Assembly: GCF_013822795.1 (NCBI RefSeq)
Contig: NZ_PNLB01000003.1
Coordinates: 212,270-276,269, forward strand
Length of the DNA stretch: 64,000 bases
Direction: 5' to 3'
From: Phenylobacterium sp.
Lineage (GTDB): Bacteria > Pseudomonadota > Alphaproteobacteria > Caulobacterales > Caulobacteraceae
The position numbers and the translations under genes were made by a program. The notes below the pieces were generated by a model. The model did not search any database. It was not told the origin of the DNA and saw only the letters and a program-made list of their open reading frames with translations. Positions 29,468-58,330 of the stretch are shown here, piece after piece; positions within the stretch are counted from its first letter, which is position 1, and every line of letters starts with the position of its first letter.

Positions 29468-31690
29468 CTAGAACTCGTACTTCAGGTCCACGCCGTAGGT
29501 CTTGGGCGGGGCGTAGTAGTTCATCAGATCGCCGAAGAAGGTCTGGGCCGCGACGGCGTAGAGTTCGTCAGTGAGGTTCTTGCCCCACACCGTGACCGAC
29601 CAGGCCGCACCGGGCGGTTGGACGCGGAGCGAGGCGTCCCACAGGCCGAACGGCTCCTGGGCAAAGGTGTTGGCCGGCGTCCAGTAGCTCTTGCCCTGCT
29701 TGGTGTAGTTGGTCTGCAGGCTGAAGGCCTGGTCCCACTCGCCGATGCCGAACACGTAGTTGGCGCCGATGTCGAACTTGTACTCCGGCGAGCGCTGGAT
29801 CTGGTTGCCCGAGAACACCACCCCGGCCCCGTCGACGAAGTTCTTGTACTTGGCGTCGAGCCACGAGCCCGAGGCGGTCAGGGTCAGGTCCTCGTTGACC
29901 GCCCAGGTGCCTTCGGCTTCCAGGCCCTTGATCTCGGCGGTGCCGGCGTTGCTGGTGATCAGGCAGAGGCATTCCAGGACCAGCTGCTGGGACTGCAGGT
30001 CCTTGTAGTCCATCTTGAAGGCGGCGAGGTTCAGCCGCACCCGGCGGTCGAACAGGTCCGACTTCACGCCGATCTCGTAGTTGGTGGCCTTTTCCGGGTC
30101 ATAGCCGATGGCGGCGGCCGCGGCGGTCGACGGCAGGTGGTCCCAGCCGCCGCCCTTGAAGCCCTTGGCGACGCTGCCGTAGATCATGACGTTGTCGTTG
30201 GGGCGGTACTCGATGATCCCCTGCGGGGTCAGGGCGTTCCAGTCCTTGCCGTAGTTGACGGTGAAGGACTGGCCCTTGGCCAGCACCAGGGCCGCCACGC
30301 AGAGGCCGTCGCCGCCGTCCTCGAGACACTGGGCCAGGCGCGTGCCGCTCTTGTCGTCCATGGTGTAGCGCAGGCCGACCGTGGCCTTGAGCTGGTCGGT
30401 GAACTTGTAGCCGACCTGGCCGAAGACCGCGGACGTCTTGAGGTCGGCCTTGTTGGTGTAGAGGAAGGTGCCGCTGAGCGCCGGGATCGCCGTGTAGGTG
30501 GTGGCGACGTTGGAGTCGTAGCGCGTAACGTCGTCGCTCTGGTGGAACGCCCCGATGATCCAGTCGAAGCGGCTGTCAGGATTGTCCGACACCAGCCGCA
30601 GTTCCTGGCTGATCGTCTCAGGCTTCTCGGTGGTCGAATAGAAGGTGTCGGCCAGGCCGGGAGGCGAGCCGATGCCCAGCTGATTGAAGCCCATCACGCC
30701 CTTGGACGAGCGGTAGCCGGTGATCGAGGTCAGCTTGGCGCCCTCGAACACGCCCCAATCGACGCGCAGCATGGCCCCGCGGGTGATCCGGCGGCTGTAC
30801 TCATGCTCTGGGCTGGTGCCGTCGCGCGGGCCGAGGCCCCGCGCCGCGCGCCAGGCCGCAACCACGCCGGTGCCGGCGGCGAACGGGTCGTCGGTCATCA
30901 CCCGCGCCGTGCCGTCGGTCTCATCCCGGCCGTAGTCAAACGTCGCCAGCACCTGAAGGTCGGCGTCTGGCGCGCGATACAGCAGCTCGCCGCGCCCCTG
31001 ATAGGACTTCAGGTTGTCCATGTCGCCGCCGAGGATGACGTTCTGGCTGTAGCCCGAGCGGTTGCGGACCTGGAAGGCGACACGGCCGGCCAGGTCGTCG
31101 GTCAGCGGCCCGGTCACGTAGCCGTTGGCCATCACCGAGTCGTAGTTGCCGAACGAGACGGTGGTCGCCCCGGACGGGTCGAACTTGGGCTTGGCGGTGA
31201 TGACGCTGATCGCGCCGCCGACCACGTTCTTGCCCAGCAGCACGCCCTGCGGGCCGCGGATCACCTCGACCCGCTCCAGGTCGTAGAAGTCGGTGAAGGC
31301 CGAGCCCATCCGCGAGAGGTAGACTTCGTCGACGAACATCCCGACCGACGGCTCGGCGGTGGCGTCGAGGATCCGCACGCTGGTCACGCCGCGGATGCTG
31401 AGCTCCTTGCCCAGGGCCGAGCTCTCAGTCATCGAGAACGACGGCACCGTGGTCGACAGCGAGCTGAGATCGACGATGCGGCTGCGTTCCAGCGCCTGCT
31501 CGGTGATCGCGCTGATCGCCGAGGGGACGTCCTGCAGCTTCCGCTCGCGGCGGTCGGCGGTGACGATCACTTCCTCGACGGCGACGGGCCGGGCGCTGGC
31601 GGCCGGCGCGGTCTGGGCGACCGCCGTGGTCCCGGTCGAAAGCGCCCCGACGGCGCAGGTAGCCAACAGAATGAGCGCTTGCCTGGTCAT
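29468..31690 (-). CDS. TonB-dependent outer-membrane receptor, catabolic cluster
   Basis: The protein has 740 residues from the ATG at 31690 (MTRQALILLATCAVG). The open frame runs much further upstream but there it is only the antisense of the MFS gene. A signal peptide ends near AVAQ, then a TonB-box-like VEEVIVTADRRERK, the plug (VPSAISAITEQ, LSIRGVTSVRI, VEVIRGPQGVLLGKNVVGGAISV) and a barrel ending in Phe (LKYEF). It resembles the receptors of sphingomonads and caulobacters that take up hydrophobic or aromatic compounds rather than iron. Two copies of the cluster's direct-repeat motif lie between it and the divergent MFS gene. Confidence 0.88.
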   Translation of the reverse strand: MTRQALILLATCAVGALSTGTTAVAQTAPAASARPVAVEEVIVTADRRERKLQDVPSAISAITEQALERSRIVDLSSLSTTVPSFSMTESSALGKELSIRGVTSVRILDATAEPSVGMFVDEVYLSRMGSAFTDFYDLERVEVIRGPQGVLLGKNVVGGAISVITAKPKFDPSGATTVSFGNYDSVMANGYVTGPLTDDLAGRVAFQVRNRSGYSQNVILGGDMDNLKSYQGRGELLYRAPDADLQVLATFDYGRDETDGTARVMTDDPFAAGTGVVAAWRAARGLGPRDGTSPEHEYSRRITRGAMLRVDWGVFEGAKLTSITGYRSSKGVMGFNQLGIGSPPGLADTFYSTTEKPETISQELRLVSDNPDSRFDWIIGAFHQSDDVTRYDSNVATTYTAIPALSGTFLYTNKADLKTSAVFGQVGYKFTDQLKATVGLRYTMDDKSGTRLAQCLEDGGDGLCVAALVLAKGQSFTVNYGKDWNALTPQGIIEYRPNDNVMIYGSVAKGFKGGGWDHLPSTAAAAAIGYDPEKATNYEIGVKSDLFDRRVRLNLAAFKMDYKDLQSQQLVLECLCLITSNAGTAEIKGLEAEGTWAVNEDLTLTASGSWLDAKYKNFVDGAGVVFSGNQIQRSPEYKFDIGANYVFGIGEWDQAFSLQTNYTKQGKSYWTPANTFAQEPFGLWDASLRVQPPGAAWSVTVWGKNLTDELYAVAAQTFFGDLMNYYAPPKTYGVDLKYEF

Positions 31691-31757
31691 TGAGTTTCCC
31701 CCGTACGTGCAGCGCCGCCGGCGCCGATCCACTGGGCTCTGCGGCCCGTGACGAGAG

Positions 31758-31777
31758 ACTTGCATTACTGAACTGAA
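31758..31777 (+). promoter_or_regulatory. Cluster direct-repeat motif, copy 1 (TonB receptor/MFS divergon)
   Basis: ACTTGCATTACTGAACTG: ACTTGCA at 31758-31764 and ACT at 31772-31774, 14 bp apart. It lies between the divergent starts at 31690 and 31889. CAAGT at 31783-31787 is an inverted partner of the first ACTTG. Confidence 0.55.
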
Positions 31778-31813
31778 CCGCACAAGTCCTTTTTTGAAAG
31801 TCTCATTAGATTG

Positions 31814-31833
31814 GCTTGCATTTTGATACCATC
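31814..31833 (+). promoter_or_regulatory. Cluster direct-repeat motif, copy 2 (TonB receptor/MFS divergon)
   Basis: GCTTGCATTTTGATACC: GCTTGCA at 31814-31820 and ACC at 31828-31830, with the same 14-bp pitch, 75 bp before the MFS start. Confidence 0.5.
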
Positions 31834-31888
31834 GAGGTGACGGTGCGGTCGACGCCGCGCAGACGGCGGTGCCATTGGGGGCCGGGTA

Positions 31889-33277
31889 ATGCTTCAAAAG
31901 TCGATGTCGACCACAGCTCCGGCCCGAGATCCGGCAACGGATTCTTCCCTGCGTGCGACGCAGGTCACGGCCGTCGCCTGGCCCGCCCCTGCCCGCGCCT
32001 GGACGATGGTGCTGGTGCTCATGGCCGCCTATGCGGTGGGGTTCGTCGACCGCCAGATCCTGACTCTGCTGGTCGAGCCGCTGCGCCGCGACCTCGGCAT
32101 CACCGACACCCAGTTCAGCCTGCTGAGCGGGCTGGCCTTCACGTTGTTCTACACCCTGATGGGCGTGCCGCTGGCCTGGCTGGCCGACCGCGGCTCGCGC
32201 CGTAACCTGATCATGGTCAGCATCGGGGTGTGGAGCGCGATGACCGCGGCCTGCGGCCTGGCCGGGTCGTTTGTGTCGCTGTTCGCCGCGCGCGTCGGCG
32301 TCGGCATCGGCGAGGCCGGGCTGTCGCCGGCCGCCTATTCGATGATCGCCGACTCCTTTCCCCCGGCCAAGCGGGCGCGGGCGATGGGGGTCTATGCGAT
32401 CGGCTCGATCGCCGGGGTCGGCATGGCGCTGATCATCGGCGGCGCGGTGATCGAATGGGCGGCCACCGCCCCGCCGGTCAGCTTGCCGCTGGTCGGACTG
32501 CTGAAGGGCTGGCAGATCGCGTTCATGCTGGTCAGCCTGCCCGGGCCCGTGCTGATCGCCGCGATGCTGTTCCTGCGCGAACCGGCCCGCCAGGGCGCGG
32601 GCGCGGCGCCATCCGCTCCGCTCGGCCCCTACCTGCGCCGCCGCTGGCTGGTGTTCACCCTGCTGGCGGCCGGCTACTCGCTGGTCGGGGTGGTGATCGC
32701 CGCCTACCTGACCTGGGCGCCGGCCTTCCTGATGCGCGCGCACGGCTGGCCGGTCGGCAAGGTCGGCGCCGTCTACGGGACCATCCTGCTGGTCGGCAGC
32801 ACGCTCGGCGTGCTGATCGGCGGCTGGTGGACCGACCGCTTCGCCGCCGCCGGCCGCAAGGACGCGGTGCTGCGCGTGGCGATCATCGGCGCGACCCTCG
32901 CCTTCCCGTTCGCCTTGGCGGCGCCGATGATGGCGACCGGCGAGCTGGCGGCGGCGATGCTGGCGCTGATGTGCCTGGGCTTTGGCCTGACCCAGGGCCT
33001 GCCGGCGGTCTCGTTCCAGGCGGTGACGCCCAACCGCGTGCGCGCCCGGGTGATCGCCCTCTACCTGCTGATCGGCAACATCGTCGCCTTCACGGTCGGG
33101 CCGACGGCGGTGGCGCTGATCAGCGACCACTGGCTGAAGGATCCCAAAAAGATCGGCGTCGCCGTGGCTGTGGTCACCGCCGTGGTGCTGCCACTTGGGG
33201 TCACAGCGCTGATCGCGGCGATCAAGCCCTATGTCCGCGCCGCGCAGGAAGAGGCCGCCGAAGCGTCCGATCACTGA
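31889..33277 (+). CDS. MFS transporter
   Basis: The protein has 462 residues, with 12 probable membrane helices. Helix 1 is AYAVGFVDRQILTLL, and the loop 2-3 signature is visible as WLADRGSRRNLIMVSIGVW; GVGIGEAGLSPAAYSMIADSFPP is typical of the hexuronate/aromatic-acid and spinster-like branches. A long N-terminal segment (about 40 residues) precedes helix 1; an inner ATG at 31904 is possible. It probably moves a substrate or product of the catabolic cluster over the inner membrane and forms an uptake pair with the divergent TonB receptor. Confidence 0.88.
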   Translation: MLQKSMSTTAPARDPATDSSLRATQVTAVAWPAPARAWTMVLVLMAAYAVGFVDRQILTLLVEPLRRDLGITDTQFSLLSGLAFTLFYTLMGVPLAWLADRGSRRNLIMVSIGVWSAMTAACGLAGSFVSLFAARVGVGIGEAGLSPAAYSMIADSFPPAKRARAMGVYAIGSIAGVGMALIIGGAVIEWAATAPPVSLPLVGLLKGWQIAFMLVSLPGPVLIAAMLFLREPARQGAGAAPSAPLGPYLRRRWLVFTLLAAGYSLVGVVIAAYLTWAPAFLMRAHGWPVGKVGAVYGTILLVGSTLGVLIGGWWTDRFAAAGRKDAVLRVAIIGATLAFPFALAAPMMATGELAAAMLALMCLGFGLTQGLPAVSFQAVTPNRVRARVIALYLLIGNIVAFTVGPTAVALISDHWLKDPKKIGVAVAVVTAVVLPLGVTALIAAIKPYVRAAQEEAAEASDH

Positions 33278-33722: not shown

Positions 33723-35195
33723 CTACTTCCCTTGCGCCGCGCGGATCGCCTGCCCCTGCCCCCAGGTCGCGTGGGTGCCGCTGGACATGCGCCCCGGCAG
33801 CACGATCCGGCAGACCGGACCCTCGGCCAGCTTCTTGGCGTCGTAGACCACGCATTCCGAGCGGTCGGCGATCATGTCGGTGACGAAGGTGACGAGATAG
33901 CCGTCGTCCTCGTCCACGGCGCCGACGCGGGGGGCGAAGCCCGGCTCGCTGCCGTAGCGCTCCTCGCCGAAGTCGATCGCCCAGCTCTCGCCGGACTTCA
34001 GGTCGTGCTTGACGAGGCCGGTGAACAGGAACCAGCCCGGCTTCGACACGGCGCTGTAGCCGTAGCGGTACGGCAGGCCGGCGTATTGGTTGTTGATGAC
34101 CCCGAACTCGAGGATGCGGTCGTCGAGGCGCTGTTCCTGGGTCTCACCGGTCTTCATGTTGAAGCGCCAGCGGTGCAGCTTCGGCCGCAGCTCGTTCTGG
34201 TCGAGGAAGGCCATGATCCGCTCATAGCCGGCCGGGGCGCTGTTGGACGACTTCGGCTCCGGGTTCTCCTCGAAGTAGCCGTCGAGCACGACCTCGTCGC
34301 CGTCCTCGAAGGCGTTGAGGAAGTGCAGCACGTAGGTCGGATCGGCCTCGAACCACTTGATGTCTTCCGGCTTGCCGTAGCGCGGCAGGATGCCGAAGCG
34401 CGAGCGCATCTCGCGGTGGAACCGCACCACGTGCAGGTTCTTCTCCAGCAGTTCGGGCTCCCAGAACACCGGCAGGTCGTTGAGGATCGAGTAGTTGGTG
34501 GTGAAGGCCATGTCGTGCGGCAGGCGCGGGCCCGGCAGCGGCACGGGGATGTAGTGCTTGAGCTTGTTGTCCGCGCCGACCACGCCGTAGTGCATGTAGG
34601 GCGCGTGCTTGGAGTAGTTGAAGAACAGCAGCTCGCCGGTGTGCTCGTCGACCTTGGGGTGGGCGGAGATGCCGTCGATCGGCGTCCAGCTCTCGATGCC
34701 CTCCTGCTCCAGCGAATAGGGGTCGAGGCGGTAGCCTTCGCCGCACTGGTAGAAGGTCGAGAGGATCTTGCCGGCGTGAACGACGACGTCGGTCGAGGAC
34801 GAGTCCTTCAGCCGCTCGTGCGCGCCCCAGCCCGGGCGGGTCGACTTGGCGGGGTTTTCGGCGAGGCCCGCCCACAGCGCGCGGCCAGCCTCCGCCTCGG
34901 CCTGGAAGCCCTTGGTGCGGACGAAGCGGTTGCGATAGGCCGCCTTGCCGTCCTTGAAGCTCATCACGTGCAGCATGCCGTCGCCGTCGAACGGGTGATA
35001 GCGGCCAAGCGGCTCGTGGACCGGGTTCTCGGTGTTGCGGACATAGACGCCGTCGATGTCGGCCGGGATCTGGCCGATCACTTCCAGCCCCTCGCCGTTG
35101 AACTCCTCGTGCTGCGGGGTCCAGGCGCCGTTCATATAGGGGTGGTCGTTCGGCTCGATGGTGCTGTGGACCCGGTTCACCAGTTCGACGGGCAT
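33723..35195 (-). CDS. Carotenoid-cleavage/lignostilbene-type dioxygenase
   Basis: The protein has 490 residues from the ATG at 35195 (MPVELVNRVHST), preceded by AAGGGAG; an in-frame ATG at 35327 is unlikely. It belongs to the RPE65/carotenoid oxygenase family: GVYVRNTENPVHEPLGRYHPFDGDGMLHVMSF near the start, SAHPKVDEHTGELLFFNYS, LPHDMAFTTNYSI and a C-terminal GTHATWGQG. Four His bind the iron in the seven-bladed propeller; His in SAHPK, LPHDM and SGTHA are candidates. The enzyme cleaves C=C bonds of apocarotenoids or stilbenes. It is divergent from an acyl-CoA ligase gene, which suggests the cleavage product is activated with CoA. Confidence 0.88.
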   Translation of the reverse strand: MPVELVNRVHSTIEPNDHPYMNGAWTPQHEEFNGEGLEVIGQIPADIDGVYVRNTENPVHEPLGRYHPFDGDGMLHVMSFKDGKAAYRNRFVRTKGFQAEAEAGRALWAGLAENPAKSTRPGWGAHERLKDSSSTDVVVHAGKILSTFYQCGEGYRLDPYSLEQEGIESWTPIDGISAHPKVDEHTGELLFFNYSKHAPYMHYGVVGADNKLKHYIPVPLPGPRLPHDMAFTTNYSILNDLPVFWEPELLEKNLHVVRFHREMRSRFGILPRYGKPEDIKWFEADPTYVLHFLNAFEDGDEVVLDGYFEENPEPKSSNSAPAGYERIMAFLDQNELRPKLHRWRFNMKTGETQEQRLDDRILEFGVINNQYAGLPYRYGYSAVSKPGWFLFTGLVKHDLKSGESWAIDFGEERYGSEPGFAPRVGAVDEDDGYLVTFVTDMIADRSECVVYDAKKLAEGPVCRIVLPGRMSSGTHATWGQGQAIRAAQGK

Positions 35196-35252
35196 GTCGC
35201 TCTCCCTTGCTGGACGGCTCGCGGCCATCCTCATTGGCGCATGATAGGCGCA

Positions 35253-35272
35253 TTTAGTTTCAATTTGCCAGT
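35253..35272 (-). promoter_or_regulatory. Cluster direct-repeat motif, copy 3 (oxygenase side)
   Basis: On the minus strand ACTGGCAAATTGAAACTAAA: first half with one change (G for T), then ACT 14 bp later. It lies 57 bp upstream of the oxygenase start at 35195 and points toward it. Confidence 0.45.
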
Positions 35273-35319
35273 TTGATTCCGACAAGCCGACATCTGAGCC
35301 GATCGCCGCACCGAATATC

Positions 35320-35339
35320 ACTTTCATTTTGAAACTGAT
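35320..35339 (+). promoter_or_regulatory. Cluster direct-repeat motif, copy 4 (ligase side)
   Basis: ACTTTCATTTTGAAACTGAT fits the consensus, 84 bp before the ligase start at 35423. The same bases (35319-35337) also form an imperfect inverted repeat, CACTTTCA-TTT-TGAAACTG, so a palindrome-binding regulator cannot be excluded. Confidence 0.5.
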
Positions 35340-35422
35340 TTGATGTATCTCAAATCAAGCGCGAGGGCAGCGCCGCCGACCGAAGCGGCCGCCTGGCGCC
35401 AGAGTCTGGTTGGAGGAAACCC

Positions 35423-37048
35423 ATGTCCCATCCCGTCTGGTTCGACCAGAAAGCCGCGCCGAGCGCCGCCGACTGCGTCGTCCCCCGACTGATCGACCGG
35501 CACGCGAAGGCGACGCCCGACAAGGTGTTCCTGCGGTTCGAGACCGGCGAGGAATGGACCTGGGCCCAGACCCGCGAAATCGCACTGGCCACGGCCGCAG
35601 CGCTGCAGGCGCGCGGCGTGAAGCCCGGCGACATCGTGGCGGCCTGGGCGCCCAACTCCGCCGCCCTCTGCCGGGCCTGGTTCGGGGCCAACTACGCCGG
35701 GGCGGCGCTGGCCCCGATCAACACCAGCTTCCGCGGCCGGCTGCTGGAGCACGCGGTCAACAAGACCGGGGCGAAGGTGGCGGTGATCCACCCTGACCTG
35801 GCCCCACGGCTGGCGGGCCTGAACCTGCCGGCGCTGGAGCGAGTGATCCTGACCGCGCCGGGCCCCAATGCGCTGGATCTGAGCCAGGCGATCGAGCCGC
35901 CGTCGGCGCTGAACGGAGACGCCCGCCAGGCGGCGCCAGCCGATCCGCAGCCCTGGGACACGCCGGTGATCATCTTCACGTCCGGCACCACCGGGCCCTC
36001 GAAGGCGGTGGTCACCTCCTACGTCCAGGAATGGACCACGGCCCGCGTCACCTACGGCTACATGCGCGCCGACGACCGGATGCTGGTCAACCTGCCGATG
36101 TTCCATGTCGGCGGGATCAGCGGGATCATGGCCGCGCTGGCCAGCGGCGGGTCGATCGCCCTGTTCGAGGCATTCGACACGCGCCGCTTCTGGGACCTGG
36201 TGCGCGAGACCGGATCGACCACCTGCAGCGGGTTCATCGGGGCGCTGACCAGCTTCCTGCACAAGGAGCCGCCGCGCGCCGACGACAAGGACAATCCGCT
36301 GCGGATCTGCACCCTGTCGCCAGTGTCCGAGGAGACGGTGGCCTTGGCCGAGCGGTTCGGCTTCGAATACGTCTCCGGCTTCAACATGACCGAGGTCTCC
36401 TCGCCGCTGATCAGCGAAGTCAACGAGAAGACCATGCGCAGCTGCGGGCGACCGCGGGCCGGCGTGCAGTGCCGGCTGGTCGACGCCTTCGACCAGGAAG
36501 TTCCGGTCGGCGAGGTCGGCGAGCTGACCATCCGCACCGACCGGCCTTGGGAGCTGTTCAAGGAGTATCTGGGCGATCCCGCCGCCACCGCCGAGGCCTG
36601 GCGCAACGGCTGGTTCCACACCGGCGACCTGTTGTGGCGCGACGCCGAGGGGCTGTTCTACTTCGTCGACCGCAAGAAGGACGCGATCCGCCGCCGCGGC
36701 GAGAACATGTCGTCGCTGGAGATCGAGATCGAGGTCAGCGCCTATGAGCACGTGCGCGAAGTGGCCGCCTATGGCGTCGACCTGCCGGGCGGCGAGCAAG
36801 AGGTGATGATCTGCGTGGCTCCGCGCGAAGGTTCAACAGTCGACCCCAAGGCGTTGATCGAGTTCCTGATTCCGCGCATGGCCCACTTCATGGTGCCGCG
36901 GTATGTGCGGGTCGAGGCAGAGCTGCCCAAGACCCCGACCAACAAGATCCAGAAGGTCGAGCTGCGCAAGGAAGGCGTCACCGCCCAGACCTGGGATCGC
37001 GAGGCCGCCGGCATCCGCGTCAAGCGCGAGAAGCTGTCGACGCACTAG
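35423..37048 (+). CDS. Acyl-CoA synthetase/AMP-dependent CoA ligase
   Basis: The protein has 541 residues. The AMP/Pi-binding loop is IIFTSGTTGPSKAVV (about 183-197), followed by FNMTEVSSPL and the hinge region WFHTGDLLWRDAEGLFYFVDRKKDAIRRRGENMSS. The catalytic Lys lies in PTNKIQKVELR. It resembles the CaiC/crotonobetaine-CoA ligase branch and should activate a carboxylic acid as AMP-ester, then CoA-thioester. It is divergent from the oxygenase gene and carries the cluster motif upstream. Confidence 0.88.
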   Translation: MSHPVWFDQKAAPSAADCVVPRLIDRHAKATPDKVFLRFETGEEWTWAQTREIALATAAALQARGVKPGDIVAAWAPNSAALCRAWFGANYAGAALAPINTSFRGRLLEHAVNKTGAKVAVIHPDLAPRLAGLNLPALERVILTAPGPNALDLSQAIEPPSALNGDARQAAPADPQPWDTPVIIFTSGTTGPSKAVVTSYVQEWTTARVTYGYMRADDRMLVNLPMFHVGGISGIMAALASGGSIALFEAFDTRRFWDLVRETGSTTCSGFIGALTSFLHKEPPRADDKDNPLRICTLSPVSEETVALAERFGFEYVSGFNMTEVSSPLISEVNEKTMRSCGRPRAGVQCRLVDAFDQEVPVGEVGELTIRTDRPWELFKEYLGDPAATAEAWRNGWFHTGDLLWRDAEGLFYFVDRKKDAIRRRGENMSSLEIEIEVSAYEHVREVAAYGVDLPGGEQEVMICVAPREGSTVDPKALIEFLIPRMAHFMVPRYVRVEAELPKTPTNKIQKVELRKEGVTAQTWDREAAGIRVKREKLSTH

Positions 37049-42606: not shown

Positions 42607-42665
42607 CGCGTATCCTTACATCCCCAGGCGCGAACCCCCCGCGCCTCCAAAAGCCGCAAGCCTTG

Positions 42666-42685
42666 ACTTGCAAATAGCAACTTAT
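42666..42685 (+). promoter_or_regulatory. Cluster direct-repeat motif, copy 5
   Basis: ACTTGCAAATAGCAACTTAT: ACTTGCA and ACTTATT 14 bp apart, 60 bp before the flavoprotein start at 42606. Confidence 0.55.
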
Positions 42686-42723
42686 TGGCCGCTCGCAGCG
42701 GCGTCAACCGCTCCAGCGTTGTT

Positions 42724-48697: not shown

Positions 48698-48709
48698 CGG
48701 CGTTTCCCC

Positions 48710-49468
48710 CTACCGGCCGGTCGAAATTTCAGTCGCCTTGAGCATCTTGGCCATCTGGCGCTCCAGGCCCTTCGGATCGCGGGCCTGGGCGGCGCGCGTC
48801 TCAATGGCCATGCGGTCGGTGTCGACCTCGTCCTGGCCGCGCTCGACGGCCTTGATGCCGGCCTTGGCGATCACCGAGGGCGGCTCCTTGGCGCCCTTCA
48901 CGTGCTCGGCCATGCGGGTGTCGACCGAGCCGACGATCAGCGCCGAGACGGTGGTGCCCTGGTCGGCCAGCTCGGCGCGGATGCACTGGGTGGCGGCGCG
49001 CATGGCGAACTTCGAGGGGCTGTAGCCGCCCATGTTCGGGGCCGCCAGAATGCCGCCGACCGACAGCACGTTGATGATCCCGCCGCCGCCGTGCTTGGCG
49101 AGCGCAGGCGCGAAAGCGCGGCACATGGCGACGGGGCCGAAGTAGTTGACCTCCATCTCCTCGCGCGCGCCGGCCAGGGTGTCGGAGCCGATCAGCAGAC
49201 CGTGAGTGAAGGCCCCGGCGTTGTTGACGATCAACGAAACGTCGGGCCGCGCGGCGGCGATCGCCGCGATCTGGTCAGGCTGGCTGACGTCGAGCCCGAC
49301 CGCCGTCACCTTGCCGGGGTAGTCGGCCTCCAGATGCTTGGCCGAGGCCGGGTCGCGCGCGGCGGCGTAGACGTGGGCAGCGCCGGCGGCGACCAATTCG
49401 CGCACGAACGCCTCGCCGATGCCGCGGTTAGCCCCGGTGACCAGGGCGACGGAATCCTTGACCTGCAT
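48710..49468 (-). CDS. Short-chain dehydrogenase/reductase
   Basis: The protein has 252 residues. The cofactor motif is TGANRGIG (about 13-20), NNAGA (about 85-89) and the active site YSPSKFA with Tyr and Lys. It is the first gene of the operon, 12 bp before the DUF1295 gene, and should oxidise or reduce a hydroxyl or ketone of the cluster's substrate. Confidence 0.88.
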   Translation of the reverse strand: MQVKDSVALVTGANRGIGEAFVRELVAAGAAHVYAAARDPASAKHLEADYPGKVTAVGLDVSQPDQIAAIAAARPDVSLIVNNAGAFTHGLLIGSDTLAGAREEMEVNYFGPVAMCRAFAPALAKHGGGGIINVLSVGGILAAPNMGGYSPSKFAMRAATQCIRAELADQGTTVSALIVGSVDTRMAEHVKGAKEPPSVIAKAGIKAVERGQDEVDTDRMAIETRAAQARDPKGLERQMAKMLKATEISTGR

Positions 49469-49516
49469 GAAGGCCCCTCAAGCTGCATGAGCGCGCGTTT
49501 CCTCCCCGCGCCGTTT

Positions 49517-49536
49517 TTAGTCTTTATATGAAAGCT
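49517..49536 (-). promoter_or_regulatory. Cluster direct-repeat motif, copy 7 (SDR-DUF1295-ligase operon)
   Basis: On the minus strand GCTTTCATATAAAGACTAAA: GCTTTCA and ACTAAAA 14 bp apart, 48 bp before the operon's first ATG at 49468. It aligns closely with the copy at 52877. Confidence 0.5.
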
Positions 49537-49569
49537 ACACGAACGATGCTGCGGTGCAAGGGGCTTGGG

Positions 49570-50391: not shown

Positions 50392-50407
50392 GCCGGCCTC
50401 CCTATAA

Positions 50408-50427
50408 CTTGCATTTACGAACCGATA
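50408..50427 (+). promoter_or_regulatory. Cluster direct-repeat motif, copy 8 (SDR/thiolase divergon)
   Basis: ACTTGCATTTACGAACCGAT: ACTTGCA and ACCGATA 14 bp apart, between the SDR start at 50391 and the thiolase start at 50475. It lies only 16 bp from the SDR start. Confidence 0.55.
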
Positions 50428-50474
50428 CCTTAGGCTCGCCGGCAAGATCACGAAAGATCAGGTTGGAGGAAGCC

Positions 50475-51704
50475 ATGGCGATCTATCTTCTGGGCGGTCA
50501 TCAGAGCGACTTCGCCCGCGCCTGGTCGCGCGAGGGCCTCGACCTGTCGGACATCCTGCGCGACGGCATCCTGGGCGCGCTGGACGCCTGTAAGCTGGAC
50601 GCCTCCGACATCGACGCCGTCCACGTCGGCAACGCCTTCGGCGAGCTCTATCGCGGCCAGGGCCACCTGGCGGCGATGGTCGCTCAGGTGGTTCCCGAGT
50701 TGCACGGCGTTCCGGCCATGCGCCACGAAGCGGCCTGCGCCTCGGCCTCCATCGCCGTGCTGACCGCCACCGCCGAGATCGAAGCCGGCCGCTACGACTG
50801 CGTGCTGATCGTCGGCGCCGAGGAAGAGAAGAACCTGCCGGGCGACGAGGCCTCCAAGGTCCAGAACGCCGCCTCCTGGCAGGGCCGCGAAGGCATCGAC
50901 TGCCGCTTCATGTGGCCGGCGGTGTTCGGTCGCCTCTCCCAGGAGTACGGCGAGCGCTACGGCCTGGACCGGCGGCACCTGAACCGGATCGCCGAGATCA
51001 ACCTGACCAACGCCAAGCGCAATCCGCTGTCGCAGACCCGCAAGTGGGCGTTCACGCCCGAGAACTTCACCGACGACGATGCGGCCAACCCGATCATCGA
51101 GCCGGGCACCCGGCGCATGGACTGCGGCCAGATCACCGACGGGACCAGCGCCATCGTGCTGTGCTCGGACCGCTTCATGGAGCGCTACGCGGCCCGCCGC
51201 GGGGTGAAGGCGAGCGACTTCCCGCAGATCCTCGGCTGGGGCCACACCAACGCCGGCATCCGCTTCCTCGACAAGATCGAGCGCTCGAAGGGCCAGGACT
51301 ACATCTTCCCGCACGTGCGCAAGGCGATCACCGACGCCTGGGGCCGGGCCGGCATCGCCGGGCCGCAGGATCTGTCGGGCGTCGAGACCCACGACTGCTT
51401 CACCTCGACCGAGTACATGGCCATCGACCACCTGGGCCTGACCGCGCCCGGGCAATCCTGGCAGGCGGTGGAGAGCGGCCTGATCGAGCTGGGCGGCAAG
51501 TGCCCGGTCAACGCCTCCGGTGGGCTGATCGGCGTCGGCCACCCGGTCGGGGCCACCGGCGCCCGGATGCTGCTGGACGCCGGCCGCCAGGTCACCGGCA
51601 CCGCCGGCGACTACCAGGTCGAGGGCGCGCGCACCTACCAGACCCTGAACATCGGCGGCTCGCTGGGCACCGTGGTCAGCTTCGTCGTCGGGCGGGCGGG
51701 GTAG
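50475..51704 (+). CDS. Thiolase/SCP-x-type acetyl-CoA acetyltransferase
   Basis: The protein has 409 residues from the ATG at 50475 (MAIYLLGGHQSDFARAW), preceded by GGAGGA. The nucleophile Cys88 lies in HEAACASASIAV; HDCFTSTEY (about 313-321) and GGLIGVGHPVGATG hold the other catalytic residues. It resembles SCP-x/Ltp2-like thiolases that cleave or lack a beta-keto side chain in sterol degradation. The substrate here is unknown. Confidence 0.85.
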   Translation: MAIYLLGGHQSDFARAWSREGLDLSDILRDGILGALDACKLDASDIDAVHVGNAFGELYRGQGHLAAMVAQVVPELHGVPAMRHEAACASASIAVLTATAEIEAGRYDCVLIVGAEEEKNLPGDEASKVQNAASWQGREGIDCRFMWPAVFGRLSQEYGERYGLDRRHLNRIAEINLTNAKRNPLSQTRKWAFTPENFTDDDAANPIIEPGTRRMDCGQITDGTSAIVLCSDRFMERYAARRGVKASDFPQILGWGHTNAGIRFLDKIERSKGQDYIFPHVRKAITDAWGRAGIAGPQDLSGVETHDCFTSTEYMAIDHLGLTAPGQSWQAVESGLIELGGKCPVNASGGLIGVGHPVGATGARMLLDAGRQVTGTAGDYQVEGARTYQTLNIGGSLGTVVSFVVGRAG

Positions 51705-52850: not shown

Positions 52851-52876
52851 GCCCGCTCCCCGCTCACCTTTCGTTA

Positions 52877-52896
52877 GCTTGCATTCCAAGACTTAT
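52877..52896 (+). promoter_or_regulatory. Cluster direct-repeat motif, copy 9 (dehydrogenase/thiolase divergon)
   Basis: GCTTGCATTCCAAGACTTAT: GCTTGCA and ACTTATC 14 bp apart, 26 bp from the dehydrogenase start at 52850 and 63 bp from the thiolase start at 52959. Confidence 0.55.
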
Positions 52897-52958
52897 CGTG
52901 GCAAGCCGGAGCATGGCCAGACGCCCGATCAAGGGCGCGGCCGGGAGGAAACACGCAC

Positions 52959-54113
52959 GTGGACGCCTGGATCTACGACGCCGTCCGCACCCCGCGCGGC
53001 AAGGCCCGCCCGGACGGATCGCTGGCCGCCAACAAGCCGCAGGAACTGGTAGGAGCGCTTGTCGATGCCCTGGAGGCCCGCGGCCACGATCCCCGCGCCA
53101 GCCAGGCCATGGTGCTGGGCTGCGTCGGCCAGGTCGGCGACCAGGGGGCCAATATCGCCCTGGTGTCCAAGCTGCATTCCGGCGTCTCCGAGGACGCTTA
53201 CGCCTTCACGCTCAACAACTACTGCGTCTCGGGCCTGACCGCGATCGGCCATGCGGCGACCATGGTCGCCGGCGGCGCGATCGACCGCGCGTTGGCCGGC
53301 GGCGTCGAGATGATGTCGCGCGTGCCGTTCATGGGCGACAACGCCGGCTACTATACCGACGACAGCTTCCCGAAGCGCTCGCGCTACATCCCGGTGGTGG
53401 TCGCCGCGGACCGGCTGGCCCAGGCCGAGGGCGTCACACGCGAGGCATTGGACGCCGTCGCCCTCGCCTCCCAGGTCCGCACCGGCCAGGCGGAGGCGAA
53501 CCCGGCCCTGATCGCCTCGCGCATCGCCGTCGGCGCGGCCGGCGTCGAGGAGTGCGCTCGGCCGCAGACGACCGCCGTGTCCCTCGCCGCCATGCCCGCC
53601 GCCTTCGCCCCGCTGGCGGCGACCTATGCGCAGGCGCTGGAAGGCCCGATCGACCACCGCCACACCATCGCCCACGCCCCACCGGTCTGCGACGGCGCTG
53701 GACTGGCGCTCGTCGGCGGCGCACCGAGCGGCGGCCGCAAGGCCCGCGCCCGCATCCTCGCCTACGCCGAATCCGGCGGCGACCCGCAGGCCTCGCTGCT
53801 GGCCGGGTTCTCGGCGATGGACAAGGCGCTGGAGAGAGCCGGTCTGAACCTGGGCGACATGGACCGCATCGAGTTCATGGAGGCCTTCGCCGTCACCATC
53901 GCCAAGTTCCTACGCGATCGCCCCGCTGACCCGGCCAAGGTCAATGTCGGCGGCGGCCACCTGGCCAAGGGCCACCCGATGGGGGCGACCGGCGCGATCC
54001 TGCTGTCGTCGCTACTGGACGCCCTGGACGCCGCCGAGGGCCGCCTGGGCCTTGTCGTCGCCACCGGCGCGGCCGGGGTCGGCGCGGCCATGGTGGTCGA
54101 ACGCCTCGCCTGA
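52959..54113 (+). CDS. Thiolase (acetyl-CoA acyltransferase), second Cys missing
   Basis: The protein has 384 residues and starts with GTG at 52959 (MDAWIYDAVRTPRGKA). The nucleophile Cys89 is in LNNYCVSGLTAIG, and GGHLAKGHPMGATG holds the catalytic His. FMEAFAV replaces the usual NEAFA. At the C terminus the usual CxGGGMG is VATGAAGVG, so the second catalytic Cys, which activates the first, is absent. The enzyme may therefore have a changed or degradative-only role. It is followed after 12 bp by the third CoA ligase gene. Confidence 0.85.
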   Translation: MDAWIYDAVRTPRGKARPDGSLAANKPQELVGALVDALEARGHDPRASQAMVLGCVGQVGDQGANIALVSKLHSGVSEDAYAFTLNNYCVSGLTAIGHAATMVAGGAIDRALAGGVEMMSRVPFMGDNAGYYTDDSFPKRSRYIPVVVAADRLAQAEGVTREALDAVALASQVRTGQAEANPALIASRIAVGAAGVEECARPQTTAVSLAAMPAAFAPLAATYAQALEGPIDHRHTIAHAPPVCDGAGLALVGGAPSGGRKARARILAYAESGGDPQASLLAGFSAMDKALERAGLNLGDMDRIEFMEAFAVTIAKFLRDRPADPAKVNVGGGHLAKGHPMGATGAILLSSLLDALDAAEGRLGLVVATGAAGVGAAMVVERLA

Positions 54114-54125
54114 TCGGAGCCGACG

Positions 54126-55808
54126 ATGATCCTTGTTCCTGCCGACCACATCGCCGCGTACCGCGCCAAGGGCTGGTGGGGCGAGACCACGATGGTTGAC
54201 CTGCTGGACCGCCACGTAGCCGAACGGCCCGGCGACGACGCGCTGATCGATCCGCCGAACACCGGGGCCATTATCGGCCGACCTCCGCGCCGCCTGACCT
54301 GGCGCGAGCTCGGCGCCGAAGTCGATCGTCTGTCCGCTGTGTTGCACTGCGCGGGGCTGGCCAAGGACGATATCCTACTGGTCCAGTTGCCCAACGTGGT
54401 CGAACTGACCCTCGCCTACCTCGCCGCCTTCAAGCTGGGGGTCATCGTCACCCCTGCCCCGGTGCAATACCGCGAGAACGAGCTCTCCAGCATCGTGCGC
54501 CGCACCGCGGCCAAGGCAGCGATCACCGGCGCCGTTATCGGCGGGCACGACCACGTCGCCCAGCTTCGCGGCCTGCCGCTGGACCATATCTTCAGCGTCG
54601 GCGCGGCGCCCGGCGCGCAGGAGCTCGGCGCGGCCATGGCCGGCGCGCCCCCTGAACTGCTTGCCGCGGCCCAGGCCGCCGCCTCAGCCGCCGCGATCAC
54701 CGCCGACGACGTGGCGACCATCTGCTGGACCTCCGGCACCGAGGCCGAGCCCAAGGGCGTGCCGCGCAGCCACAACGAGTGGCTGATCATGGCGCAGGGC
54801 GTGGTCGCCGCCGGCCGCCTGTCGACAGGCGCGCGGCTGCTGAACCCGTTTCCGATGGTCAATATGGGCGGCGTCTCGACGGCGCTGGCCGGCTGGCTGC
54901 TGATCGGCGGGACCCTGATCCAGCACCATCCGTTCGACCTGGCCGTGATGCTGCAGCAGATGCGCGAGCACGCCATCGACTACACTGTGGCGCCGCCGGC
55001 GGTGCTGAACCTGCTGGCGCACGACCCCAAGCTGCTGGAGGGCGTGGACTTCGGCCGTCTGCGCGCGATCGGCTCAGGCTCAGCGCCGCTGTCGGAAGCG
55101 ATGATCCGCGCCTTCCATGACCGCTACGACGTCGAGATCGTCAATTACTTCGGCTCCAACGAGGGCATGTCGCTGTGCGGCACGTCCGACGACATTCCCG
55201 GGCACGGCGAGCGGGCGACGTTCTTCCCGCGGGTCGGCGCGCCGGGCTTCGACTGGGCCTACCCGCTCAACGACCGGTTCTTCACCCGTCTCGTCGATCC
55301 GGACACCGAGGAAGAGATCACGCAGCCCGGCCGTCACAGCGAGATGCGGATCAAGGGGCCGACCGTCTTCGCCGGCTACTGGCGCGCGCCAGAGCTGACC
55401 GCCAAGGCGTTCGACGCCGACGGCTGGTTCCGCACCGGCGACCTGTTCGAGATCGCCGGCGACCAGGCGCAGTACTACCGCTTCGTCGGGCGGTTGAAGG
55501 ACATCATCATTCGGGGCGGGATGAACATCTCGTCCGAGGAGATCGAGAGCCACCTGATGGCCCACCCGGAGGTGGCCGACGCCGCGGTGGTCGGTTCGCC
55601 CGACGCGCGGCTGGGCGAGCGGGTCTGCGCCTTCGTCGTGCCGCGGCCGGGCAAGGCCCTGGACCGCGAGGCGATCAACGCCTTCCTGACCGACGAGCGC
55701 AAGGTTGCGGTGTTCAAGCAGATCGAGCGGCTGGAGATTCTGCCCGCCCTGCCCCGCAATCCGGTCGGCAAGGTGCTGAAGCGCGACCTGCGGGCGACGC
55801 TGGTCTAG
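54126..55808 (+). CDS. Acyl-CoA synthetase/AMP-dependent CoA ligase
   Basis: The protein has 560 residues. The AMP-binding loop is a variant, ICWTSGTEAEPKGVPRSHNEW (about 199-219; usual form SGTTGxPKG). Other features are NYFGSNEGMSLCG, WFRTGDLFEIAGDQAQYYRFVGRLKDIIIRGGMNISSEEIE and NPVGKVLKRDLR. It is cotranscribed with the thiolase. It should load a carboxylic acid on CoA; the odd loop makes activity less certain. Confidence 0.87.
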   Translation: MILVPADHIAAYRAKGWWGETTMVDLLDRHVAERPGDDALIDPPNTGAIIGRPPRRLTWRELGAEVDRLSAVLHCAGLAKDDILLVQLPNVVELTLAYLAAFKLGVIVTPAPVQYRENELSSIVRRTAAKAAITGAVIGGHDHVAQLRGLPLDHIFSVGAAPGAQELGAAMAGAPPELLAAAQAAASAAAITADDVATICWTSGTEAEPKGVPRSHNEWLIMAQGVVAAGRLSTGARLLNPFPMVNMGGVSTALAGWLLIGGTLIQHHPFDLAVMLQQMREHAIDYTVAPPAVLNLLAHDPKLLEGVDFGRLRAIGSGSAPLSEAMIRAFHDRYDVEIVNYFGSNEGMSLCGTSDDIPGHGERATFFPRVGAPGFDWAYPLNDRFFTRLVDPDTEEEITQPGRHSEMRIKGPTVFAGYWRAPELTAKAFDADGWFRTGDLFEIAGDQAQYYRFVGRLKDIIIRGGMNISSEEIESHLMAHPEVADAAVVGSPDARLGERVCAFVVPRPGKALDREAINAFLTDERKVAVFKQIERLEILPALPRNPVGKVLKRDLRATLV

Positions 55809-55951: not shown

Positions 55952-56006
55952 CCTTAGAAATGTCGCCAGCGAGGGGCCTCACCCATTGCCCCACCCCGTG
56001 CGCGCC

Positions 56007-56026
56007 ATTAGTATCATTTCGCAAGT
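56007..56026 (-). promoter_or_regulatory. Cluster direct-repeat motif, copy 10 (acyl-CoA dehydrogenase)
   Basis: On the minus strand ACTTGCGAAATGATACTAAT: ACTTGCG and ACTAATG 14 bp apart, 23 bp before the start at 56049. It is oriented opposite to the gene, unlike copies 4 and 6. Confidence 0.45.
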
Positions 56027-56048
56027 AACAAGTCGGGAGGACGAACTG

Positions 56049-57236
56049 ATGGCTGCGGCGGACAAACCTCGCCTGGATTTCGATGGGCTGCGCCCGCCGA
56101 GCCCGTTCCTGACTGAGAAGCACGACGCCTGGCGCCAGCAGCTGCGCACCTTCATCGAGGCGGAGATCAACCCGAACCTCGACGCCTGGGACGCGGCGGC
56201 GACTTTCCCCGACGAGCTCTACGTGAAGGCCGCCAAGGCCGGGGTCCTGGGCATGGGCTTCTCCGAGGACCTGGGCGGCACAGGCGAGGACATCGACCTC
56301 TACCATCGCATCATCTTCGCCGAAGAGTTCTTCCGGGCCGGCTCGGGCGTGGTGTTCGCCGACCTGGCCACCCACTGGATCGCCCTGCCGCCGATCATCG
56401 CCTTCGGCCCCGAAGAGATGCGCGAGCGCGTCGCCAAGCCGATCCTGCGCGGCGAGAAGAAGATCGCCTTCGCGGTCACCGAGCCGTCCGGCGGATCGGA
56501 CGTTGGCGCCTTCCAGACCACCGCCGAGAAGCGCGGCGACACCTACATCGTCAACGGCGGCAAGACACTGATCTCGGGCGCCACCCGCGCCGACTTCCTA
56601 CTGACAGCAGTGCGTACCGGCGGTCCTGGCGTCGGCGGGCTGTCGCTGCTGATGATCGAGGCTGACCGCCCTGGCGTCTCCAGCGCCCCGGTCAAGGGCC
56701 TCGGCTGGTACAACGGCAACAACGGAACGCTCACCTTCGACAATGTCGAGGTGCCGGCCGCCAACCTGATCGGCGTCGAGAACCGCGGCTTCGCGGGGCT
56801 GGCCAATCAGTTCAACATCGAGCGCTTCAGCGGCATCGCCGCCACCCTGGCCATGGCCCGCACCGCCATCGCCGAGGCCATCGACTGGTCCCGCCAACGT
56901 CACACCTTCGGCCAACGGCTGATCGACCACCAGGCCATCCGCCACAAGATCGTCGAGATGATCCAGCGGGTGAACGCCTGCTACGCCTTCCTCGACATCC
57001 TGGTCTGGCGCTTCCACCGCGGCGAGACCCCAGTGGCCGAACTGGCCATGATGAAAGTCCAGGCGACGACGACCCTGGAGTTCGTCGCCCGCGAGAGCCT
57101 GCAGGTGCTGGGCGGTCGCGCCTATACCGGCGACAACCGCGTCGAGCGGATCTATCGCGAGGCCCGCATCTTCGTGATCGGCGGGGGCTCGGAAGAGATT
57201 CTGCGCGATCTGGCCGGACGGCAGCTCGGGTTCTGA
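56049..57236 (+). CDS. Acyl-CoA dehydrogenase
   Basis: The protein has 395 residues from the ATG at 56049 (MAAADKPRLDFDGL), preceded by GGGAGGA. FAD-dependent ACAD features are GMGFSEDLGGTGEDIDLYH, FAVTEPSGGSDVGAFQTTAEK, RQRHTFGQRLIDHQAIRHKIVEM and a C-terminal REARIFVIGGGSEEILRDLAGRQLGF. The medium-chain-type Glu (YEGT) is replaced by GGGS, as in several long- and branched-chain enzymes whose base lies elsewhere. It introduces the alpha-beta double bond in an acyl-CoA of unknown identity. Confidence 0.9.
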   Translation: MAAADKPRLDFDGLRPPSPFLTEKHDAWRQQLRTFIEAEINPNLDAWDAAATFPDELYVKAAKAGVLGMGFSEDLGGTGEDIDLYHRIIFAEEFFRAGSGVVFADLATHWIALPPIIAFGPEEMRERVAKPILRGEKKIAFAVTEPSGGSDVGAFQTTAEKRGDTYIVNGGKTLISGATRADFLLTAVRTGGPGVGGLSLLMIEADRPGVSSAPVKGLGWYNGNNGTLTFDNVEVPAANLIGVENRGFAGLANQFNIERFSGIAATLAMARTAIAEAIDWSRQRHTFGQRLIDHQAIRHKIVEMIQRVNACYAFLDILVWRFHRGETPVAELAMMKVQATTTLEFVARESLQVLGGRAYTGDNRVERIYREARIFVIGGGSEEILRDLAGRQLGF

Positions 57237-57278: not shown

Positions 57279-57283
57279 GATTT

Positions 57284-57303
57284 GCTTTCAAAAATGGACT
57301 TTC
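57284..57303 (+). promoter_or_regulatory. Cluster direct-repeat motif, copy 11 (double-HxlR gene)
   Basis: GCTTTCAAAAATGGACTTTC: GCTTTCA and ACTTTCA 14 bp apart, 83 bp before the HxlR-type start. Its presence fits autoregulation. Confidence 0.5.
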
Positions 57304-57305
57304 AG

Positions 57306-57346
57306 TGTCCAGTTGGGGCCTCGCGGCGGCCAATCCCAACTGGACA
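57306..57346. promoter_or_regulatory. 12-bp inverted repeat upstream of the double-HxlR gene
   Basis: TGTCCAGTTGGG (57306-57317) and CCCAACTGGACA (57335-57346) are perfect inverted copies 17 bp apart, 40 bp before the start at 57386. It may be an operator or an mRNA hairpin in the leader. Confidence 0.6.
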
Positions 57347-57385
57347 TAGGGGTTGTGCGGCTATACGCCTGGATGCAGGAGACCC

Positions 57386-58330
57386 ATGGCCCGCACCCGC
57401 AAGATCATCAAGAACTCCGTCCACCGAGCGCTGAACACGATCGGCGACCGCTGGAGTCAGCTGATCATCCAGGAGGCGTTCCGCGGGGCGACCCGCTATG
57501 AGGAATTCCGCGCCCGCACCGGCGCGCCGCGCAACACCCTGTCCAACCGCCTGCGTGGCCTGGTCGCCAGCGGCATCTTCGAACAACGCGCCCATCGCGA
57601 GGGCGCGGCCCGTCAGTCGTACCACCTGACGCCGATGGGCCTGGACCTGTTCGACTCGGTGCTGATCGCCTGGTGCTGGGGCATTCGCTGGGACGCCACC
57701 GCGCCCAATGGCCCGGCCGGGCTGGTCCACACAGAGTGCGGCAAGTCGATGCTGCCGATGATGGTCTGCCGCCACTGCGGCGGCGACATCTCGCTGCATA
57801 CCTGCAGCCATCATCCGGGACCGGGAGCCGGCTACGAAGAGGTCGAGATCGCTCGCCTGCACCGCCGCCGCCAGTCAGGCGCGGAGGACGCCGCTCGACC
57901 GGTGGCCGACGTCGTCGACATGACCGGCGACCGCTGGACGGGCCTGGTCATCTCGACCCAGTACTTCGGCATTCACCGGTTCGATGACATCCAGTCGATG
58001 CTGGACATCGCCACCAACATCCTGACCGACCGGCTGCGCGTGTTGGTGACCAATGGCGTGTTCGAGCGGCGGCTCTACGAGATGTCGCCGCCGCGCTACG
58101 AGTACTGGCTGACCAAGAAGGGCAAGGACCTCTATCCGCACGCCCTGGCCCTGCTGGTCTGGGCCGACAAGTGGCTGCTGGAAGACGATCAGCCGCCGGT
58201 CATAGTCACCCACAACCAGTGCGGCCACCCCGTCGACAGCGTGGTCATCTGCAGCGAGTGCCGTCACCCGCTCACCCCCGAGACGGTGACCGAGCGTCGA
58301 ACCAAGGACCGCAAGGCCAGCGCGGCCTAG
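57386..58330 (+). CDS. Fused double-HxlR regulator with two zinc-ribbon-like modules
   Basis: The protein has 314 residues from the ATG at 57386 (MARTRKIIKNS). Two winged-HTH HxlR domains lie in tandem: about 10-105 (LNTIGDRWSQLIIQEAF, APRNTLSNRLRGLVASGIFE) and about 173-265 (VVDMTGDRWTGLVISTQYF, ATNILTDRLRVLVTNGVFE). Each is followed by a Cys cluster: Cys118 with CRHC (128-131), and Cys279 with CSEC (289-292), each with a nearby His. HxlR proteins normally dimerise; here two units are fused. It closes the catabolic cluster and has the shared motif and an inverted repeat upstream, so it is the best candidate for its regulator. Confidence 0.85.
   Translation: MARTRKIIKNSVHRALNTIGDRWSQLIIQEAFRGATRYEEFRARTGAPRNTLSNRLRGLVASGIFEQRAHREGAARQSYHLTPMGLDLFDSVLIAWCWGIRWDATAPNGPAGLVHTECGKSMLPMMVCRHCGGDISLHTCSHHPGPGAGYEEVEIARLHRRRQSGAEDAARPVADVVDMTGDRWTGLVISTQYFGIHRFDDIQSMLDIATNILTDRLRVLVTNGVFERRLYEMSPPRYEYWLTKKGKDLYPHALALLVWADKWLLEDDQPPVIVTHNQCGHPVDSVVICSECRHPLTPETVTERRTKDRKASAA

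Follow-up and report, generated by a model that had tools for sequence, protein, structure and literature searches.

A double-HxlR protein as the probable reader of a lopsided 25-bp operator in a Phenylobacterium catabolic cluster

Which regulator reads the short motif that recurs in the promoter gaps of a catabolic gene cluster in Phenylobacterium? The question is raised by a stretch of 64,000 nucleotides from Phenylobacterium sp. (assembly GCF_013822795.1, contig NZ_PNLB01000003.1, positions 212,270 to 276,269), called the window here. A sequence-only reading of the window had listed eleven copies of the motif, had taken them for one regulator's operator and had named for a binding test a protein with two HxlR domains on one chain (double-HxlR). 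Here we describe the motif, the protein and their joint distribution in other genomes. The window holds twelve sites. On comparative sequence evidence they are probably operator copies of the double-HxlR protein encoded at 57386..58330, which would lie on the -35 region as a pseudo-dimer and keep the cluster repressed until released by a compound of the pathway.

The strict form of the motif, RCTTKCAWNNNNRNACY, occurs nine times without mismatch in the window, where 0.13 matches are expected; no shuffle out of 100 reaches this number. Three further sites (35256 minus, 42666 plus and 56010 minus) deviate from it by one base, as judged by reading their letters, and a looser pattern recovers the same three. 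A weight matrix of 25 nucleotides (nt) built from the 12 sites finds exactly these, and no others in the window, at a score of at least 16; their leave-one-out scores range from 19.4 to 32.2. A chance origin of the clustering is excluded. All eleven sites of the earlier list are among the twelve (eight strict, three with one mismatch), some with coordinates that were off by one to three bases (49517 becomes 49519, 50408 becomes 50407, 35253 becomes 35256 and 56007 becomes 56010), and a twelfth, at 31785 on the minus strand, had been missed. The sites are numbered below as operators 1 to 12 in order of position.

Across the whole genome (4.41 Mb) there are 13 strict matches, nine of them within the 26 kb of this cluster, and three matches to the reversed pattern. 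The genome-wide scan used the strict pattern only, which itself misses three of the 12 cluster sites, so more sites elsewhere in the genome are possible. A consensus scan of this kind had been suggested earlier; it reveals no even spread upstream of unrelated genes. The earlier impression that the motif is confined to the cluster was nearly right, but two of the four outside matches are full-strength sites (C4:17891, score 35.8; C11:99673, score 30.8). The C4 site (locus L020, around 9892) lies before an abhydrolase gene that is divergent from an acyl-CoA dehydrogenase gene, and the C11 site (L023, around 9974) before a SnoaL / beta-lactamase-family gene pair. Near-identical matches to both are listed in G023, the closest relative searched. 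The other two outside matches look like chance: one on C5 scores 12.5, and one on C10 scores 5.3 and lies inside the open reading frame (ORF) of a CBS-domain protein.

The candidate regulator (plus strand) has 314 aa and two HxlR domains. PF01638 (HxlR) matches two stretches of the one chain at E 2.5e-35 (Pfam, on the ORF from 57353), and by profile and fold the protein belongs to the HxlR / DUF24 family. Its AlphaFold2 model (pLDDT 84.7, pTM 0.84) has two domains, and the pTM suggests that the two halves are held in a fixed arrangement, consistent with a pseudo-dimer. Foldseek matches the model to PA1607, HypR, YodB and HxlR (2f2e_A, E 1.1e-05, TM by target length 0.85); the match to the PA1607 and HypR chains extends over one domain length. 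A Cys-containing, zinc-ribbon-like tail is visible by eye after each HxlR domain. The recognition segments of the two domains differ (APRNTLSNRL and IATNILTDRL), the second being the more conserved among double-HxlR proteins. No Cys occurs in either N-terminal dimer helix (KNSVHRALNTIG and PVADVVDMTG), as read from the protein sequence and the modelled helices. No second full-length copy exists in the genome, where five further matches span one domain each. Also noted in this genome were two HxlR matches on a single strand, separated by about 1.1 kb (G000:C28:22476-24313, L039).

Double-HxlR proteins are patchily distributed. The closest named relatives of the window protein are those of Phenylobacterium sp. 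Root1290 (97% identical) and Root700 (88%), and 24 of the 26 other double-HxlR proteins of the genus, in an alignment of 27, are just 36-41% identical to it. At E 1e-50, 18 of 60 genus genomes, its own among them, hold a relative, and eight of these 18 carry two or three, mostly on one contig. Full-length doubles are present in 41 of 200 genomes of Caulobacterales, counted by hand as matches spanning most of a 298-position model. They are also found in Gammaproteobacteria, sphingomonads, Pseudovibrio and one Mycobacterium, and a search of the protein database gives 268 proteins at E 1e-30. The 77 loci searched yielded 61 full-length doubles, 55 of which were translated; 46 of the 55 were aligned with the window's own, six with an internal stop and three divergent actinobacterial ones being omitted.

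The motif follows the gene. The strict pattern is found 102 times in the 18 genus genomes with a double-HxlR gene versus 38 for the reversed control (89 versus 35 without the window's own genome), and 62 times versus 70 in the 42 genus genomes without one. A matrix trained on the window sites alone finds 81 sites with scores of at least 16 in 431 kb beside the doubles of other Phenylobacterium genomes, in 26 of 27 loci, and a single such site in 504 kb of 27 comparison stretches (16 from the window's own genome, 11 from relatives). Beside doubles outside Phenylobacterium-like loci and named Caulobacteraceae, 28 of 38 loci have a site at this score (58 sites in 603 kb). Unseeded expectation maximisation (EM), with random words as starting points and with 189 noncoding stretches from 40 double-HxlR loci in records not named as Caulobacteraceae as input, returned TnACTTGCATAAcnAaACT as the best motif, with about 42 sites; the next two motifs were shifted versions of it. 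A stricter pattern derived from the sites of relatives has 14 matches in 12 of the 200 Caulobacterales genomes, against four for its reversed control. Eleven of those 12 genomes carry a full-length double-HxlR gene, versus 41 of 200 overall (hypergeometric 8e-8), and ten of the 14 matches lie within 15 kb of one (distances read by hand). In the window an operator, number 12, stands before the regulator's own gene. The association of motif and gene, the unseeded motif search and the order-wide test support the earlier proposal of one regulator's operator, and on this comparative evidence the double-HxlR protein, already named then, appears the best candidate for that regulator.

The sites themselves have a distinctive architecture. 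Similarity thinning of 201 sites left 167 non-redundant ones, which share a conserved block of 25-26 nt with sharp edges on both sides. The consensus, AGTnACTTGCATAAcRAkACTnACT, is 25 bp long and asymmetric. Its outer letters, AGTnA and TnACT (the commonest letters), mirror each other; further in the mirror breaks, and both letters of pair 6/20 are C in 152 of the 167 sites. Pairs 8/18 and 9/17 match in 22% and 20% of these sites, and in 94% and 82% of 17 sites from genes for HxlR proteins of a single domain (single-HxlR), these two being the pairs left free by the way the single sites were chosen.

Upstream of single-HxlR matches, AGT and ACT stand 11 bases apart ten times and 0-4 times at the other spacings from 0 to 25; the 46 regions in this count include at least two second domains of doubles (L204, L205) and four near-identical Burkholderia regions. 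The palindrome AGT-N11-ACT lies upstream in nine of 28 alphaproteobacterial loci (L214, L216, L217, L221, L223, L224, L226, L229 and L232), three of which hold two copies, and is missing from 19; the 28 include at least two doubles. L232 has palindromes 66 and 89 nt before its HxlR match, and L223 and L224 likewise carry one or two copies. By this sequence evidence AGT-N11-ACT is likely the family operator of some single-HxlR genes. Upstream of double-HxlR genes alone it is ACT-N11-ACT that is weakly raised (six at spacing 11, 0-4 elsewhere; 49 regions). The DNA crystallised with HxlR of Bacillus subtilis is a palindrome with half-site AGTATCC (PMC7835342). That palindrome, though one base pair wider, comes close in its half-site to the right half of the operator described here, AGTATCG.

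The motif had been described earlier as a direct repeat. The repeated ACT letters are in place, but they appear better read as a broken palindrome: the HxlR frame that single-HxlR genes show as AGT-N11-ACT, with the left half changed from AGT to ACT. Doubles with alike helices give a mixed picture. In L140, a Pseudolabrys double whose recognition helices are nearly identical, a palindromic site occurs alongside an asymmetric one; upstream of two further doubles with like helices (L137, L165) there is no good site of either form, one weak ACT-N11-ACT in L165 apart. This mixed outcome leads us to make no assignment of domain to half-site. We consider it fairly probable that the protein is a natural single-chain HxlR dimer, in which fusion was followed by divergence of the recognition helices and by a change of the operator from AGT-N11-ACT to a directional ACT-N11-ACT in which a -35 box is embedded.

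A lopsided operator is also a directional one, and its direction can be compared with that of the genes. Among sites of relatives with one flanking promoter, 37 of 46 and 55 of 73 point with the gene in two overlapping tallies, the second of which includes loci repeating genus genomes that were omitted from the tallies of start distance and of symmetry and site pairs. For 121 cases from relatives, the middle half of the distances from site centre forward to the called start runs from 43 to 70 nt. A TAnnnT hexamer stands 16, 17 or 18 bp behind TTGCAT in 14, 14 and 6 of the 167 sites; the count at any position of the control strand is 0-4, as it is at the remaining same-strand distances from 10 bp on. 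To judge from these spacings, some promoters probably use the left half of the operator as their -35 hexamer.

Several loci hold more than one site. A same-direction spacing of 58 bp is found in five pairs at four loci (L106 7323/7381/7439, L127 3275/3333, window 42662/42720 and L068 6730/6788); L106 has three operator copies in a row at this distance, and two of the four loci are the window and its 97% relative. Other pairs are spaced by 18 bp (four same-strand pairs, with letters common to both sites) or by 114-117 bp (four pairs).

Sites that point with transcription and carry a -10-like hexamer behind TTGCAT suggest repression by promoter covering. In the mechanism that we propose, the double-HxlR protein would bind each 25-bp copy as a single-chain pseudo-dimer, its two winged helices (APRNTLSNRL and IATNILTDRL) reading two unlike half-sites. 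By arithmetic from the spacing of TTGCAT and -10, the bound protein would cover about -41 to -17, over the -35 region. Covering these promoters would repress the whole cluster, and an intermediate of the pathway may act as inducer and release it. Fusion and divergence of the two domains would have made the operator lopsided.

Several results weigh against this interpretation. In relatives, 9 of the 46 and 18 of the 73 sites point against the gene. Orientation in the window is uninformative and was set aside as evidence: ten of the twelve sites are in divergent gaps, so that a gene follows whichever way they point. The two sites in tandem gaps are split, operator 12 pointing with its gene and operator 11 against. 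A recognisable -10 at the right spacing is present in only about a fifth of the sites and in three of 12 in the window. The contrast of double and single sites at pairs 5-7 is built in by the choice of the single sites, and the double sites were chosen by the window-trained matrix. The stricter pattern is absent from the genome that the window comes from and from 30 of the 41 genomes carrying a double. Ten of the 38 distant double-HxlR loci lack a site at score 16, and five actinobacterial doubles (L155, L157, L161, L164 and L169) have no match down to score 11; of the actinobacterial doubles, only that of Mycobacterium has sites. Subfamilies must therefore differ. Five of 15 single-HxlR loci also score at least 16, as does L167 outside that list, mostly at the palindromes. 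Finally, the clusters are homologous, and the counts are non-independent events.

The most serious rival keeps the protein and reverses its effect: the double-HxlR protein would bind the operator but activate. HxlR of B. subtilis is an activator (PMC7835342), and the constraint on orientation and start-codon distance in relatives is of the kind expected of activators. A protein bound to the block, at about -41 to -17, would however be placed where binding usually obstructs polymerase, and the normal 16-18 bp spacing to the -10 leaves no defect for a MerR-like twist to correct; we regard activation as rather unlikely. An improbable variant has two double-HxlR chains pair with like domains facing, each pair reading a palindrome, as in one model once weighed for Mce3R of Mycobacterium tuberculosis. 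The site pairs at 58, 18 and 114-117 bp do make higher-order binding likely, but like-with-like pairing predicts palindromes and each site is asymmetric (the C with C at pair 6/20), and for Mce3R the paired-chain model was rejected by structure (PMC11667970).

Two other rivals take the motif away from the protein. The sequence-only reading had offered a promoter element, that is the -35 box of a housekeeping or alternative sigma factor in place of an operator. TTGCAT does fall at a -35 place, with TAnnnT at the distances given, and the sites of relatives mostly point with transcription. A -35 box would hardly be limited to 13 strict matches in 4.41 Mb, nine of them in one cluster; the 25-nt block extends past any -35, with ACTnA conserved in the spacer, and its presence tracks the gene of a DNA-binding protein. 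This alternative is very improbable. What stands of it is the likely placing of TTGCAT as -35 of some promoters; as a housekeeping element it fails, being nearly absent elsewhere and showing no excess over the reversed control in the 42 genus genomes without a double. It is scarcely credible that the motif belongs to a different regulatory protein of the cluster, for instance one of its three TetR proteins (37181, 39638 and 41117, Pfam). TetR sites are palindromes as a rule and the site here is not, and in 33 site-bearing loci outside Phenylobacterium (up to 10 kb to either side, less where a contig ended) tblastn at E 1e-10 found no relative of any TetR of the window. Other candidates were rejected on the way. 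By eye, none of the listed sites has a GG element spaced ahead of TTGC as a sigma-54 (-24/-12) promoter requires. A likeness to XylS/AraC and LysR (T-N11-A) sites was dropped once the double-HxlR protein emerged, no AraC- or LysR-family match being present among the 30 window ORFs put to Pfam.

The reading as operators of a double-HxlR repressor has its nearest working parallel in Mce3R, a natural double TetR repressor that binds as an asymmetric unit to a 25-bp non-palindromic operator and has two operators 53 bp apart (PMC11667970). The double-HxlR protein would work like Mce3R. Both have two fused, diverged DNA-binding halves per chain with non-identical recognition helices (here by alignment and a listing of helices), an asymmetric operator of about 25 bp (here predicted, from the 167 sites), paired operators (53 bp for Mce3R, 58 bp at several loci here) and control of lipid-type catabolism (here predicted). 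Unlike Mce3R, the protein has the HxlR fold (Pfam and fold match) and not that of TetR, and so is not a member of that family. It also differs in being found mostly in proteobacteria, in having more operators per cluster and in having a visible symmetric counterpart operator of single-domain proteins.

In sequence and fold the protein resembles HxlR of B. subtilis and the MarR/DUF24 (HxlR) family (HypR, YodB, QsrR, PA1607), and its operator has half-site AGTATC in common with the HxlR crystal duplex (PMC7835342). HxlR-family proteins bind DNA as dimers of single-domain chains (PMC7835342), and, unlike the double chain, each of the 13 sequence matches with solved structures has a single matched stretch in a chain of 107-168 aa. 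In contrast to the palindromic HxlR / DUF24 operator, to which a homodimer binds, the predicted operator is asymmetric at pairs 6/20, 8/18 and 9/17, and the Cys-based redox or electrophile sensing in helix 1 of several family members is absent. An engineered relative is the HxlR-cpYFP-HxlR formaldehyde sensor, a single chain with two identical HxlR units around a fluorescent protein (PMC7835342). It shares one chain with two HxlR units, and indicates that helix 5 of one unit can be joined to helix 1 of the following one without loss of the fold; it differs in being engineered from identical units, the regulator here being natural. No test of the sensor on an asymmetric operator is seen in the available part of PMC7835342. 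The sensor is the sole HxlR parallel to such a fusion met in the open-access papers searched, among which no natural double HxlR was found. By comparison with these systems a natural double HxlR appears new, fused double regulators being known as Mce3R and single-chain HxlR as the engineered sensor.

The operators are distributed over the cluster as follows. The divergent gap between a TonB-dependent receptor (29468..31690, minus, judged by translation) and an MFS transporter (31889..33277, plus, Pfam, as are the assignments below) holds operator 1 (31754..31778, plus, score 26.8), operator 2 (31781..31805, minus), which points to the receptor and is the strict match absent from the earlier list, and operator 3 (31810..31834, plus; strict match and matrix), assigned to the transporter gene (start 31889). 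Operator 4 (35252..35276, minus; found by matrix, one mismatch to the strict pattern) belongs to an RPE65 / carotenoid-oxygenase family enzyme (33723..35195, minus; RPE65 matched on a longer ORF, start estimated from a Shine-Dalgarno-like stretch), and the -10-like TATCAT at 35241..35246 (minus) lies 18 bp behind its -35-like letters. Operator 5 (35316..35340, plus) precedes an AMP-dependent acyl-CoA ligase (35423..37048, plus) and is nearly palindromic, scoring 34.0 forward and 23.4 in reverse. Between a nitronate-monooxygenase (NMO)-family flavoprotein (41689..42606, minus) and two SnoaL-like proteins (42786..43552, plus) lie operator 6 (42662..42686, plus, matrix) and, 58 bp on, operator 7 (42720..42744, plus, score 35.4), with the -10-like TAGCCT at 42749..42754 (plus) 17 bp behind its TTGCAT.

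Operator 8 (49515..49539, minus, score 34.3) stands before the genes of an SDR, a DUF1295 (steroid-5-alpha-reductase-like) protein and an AMP ligase, likely one operon (46377..49468, minus). An SCPx-type thiolase (50475..51704, plus, matched on the ORF from 50409, likely start 50475) is preceded by operator 9 (50403..50427, plus, score 31.1), 16 bp behind whose TTGCAT is the -10-like TAGGCT (50431..50436, plus). Operator 10 (52873..52897, plus, matrix) lies between a divergent DapB-like gene and a thiolase and AMP ligase (52959..55808, plus). Operator 11 (56006..56030, minus, matrix) is upstream of an acyl-CoA dehydrogenase (56048..57236, plus, matched on the ORF from 55911, likely start 56048) and points against it, and operator 12 (57280..57304, plus, matrix) precedes the double-HxlR gene itself. 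An 11-bp inverted repeat, GTCCAGTTGGG...CCCAACTGGAC (57307-57345), lies between operator 12 and the start of that gene; it looks terminator-like or may be a second operator. A half site had been noted earlier at 39561, near a SnoaL gene. It is not this operator, and adjoins a different, nested inverted repeat (TTGCATAC...GTATGCAA, inner AGTCTG...CAGAC, 39580-39621). That repeat, directly before the probable start of the SnoaL gene at 39561, may be the target of a different regulator, for example the TetR protein encoded nearby.

A similar set of genes recurs behind the sites elsewhere. Of 121 genes found directly behind sites, 84 were kept after near-duplicates had been left out by hand; these 84 include 16 thiolases, 12 AMP ligases, 11 RPE65-family oxygenases, 11 DUF1295 proteins, eight TonB receptors, seven DapB-like proteins and five HxlR proteins. 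Relatives of window proteins are found in the 33 site-bearing loci outside Phenylobacterium for the thiolase at 50475 (27 loci), the NMO-family flavoprotein (21, median 59% identical) and the RPE65-family oxygenase (20, median 63% identical). The oxygenase falls far under the cut-offs of the NCBIfam models that it matches best (apocarotenoid-cleaving, 241 of 675 bits; lignostilbene dioxygenase, 231 of 800 bits) and under that of every other one matched, and for the pathway no paper combining three of five terms was found among the open-access papers searched.

With these results a likely regulator and regulon are assigned to a conserved CoA-dependent catabolic cluster marked by an RPE65-family oxygenase, an NMO flavoprotein, thiolases, ligases and a DUF1295 protein, and the predicted operator may serve as a sequence signature for locating such clusters in other genomes. 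The fusion of a homodimer into one chain would be a natural experiment that frees two half-sites to change apart. If this is true, the double- and single-HxlR proteins across bacteria would form a readable series of operator symmetry breaking.

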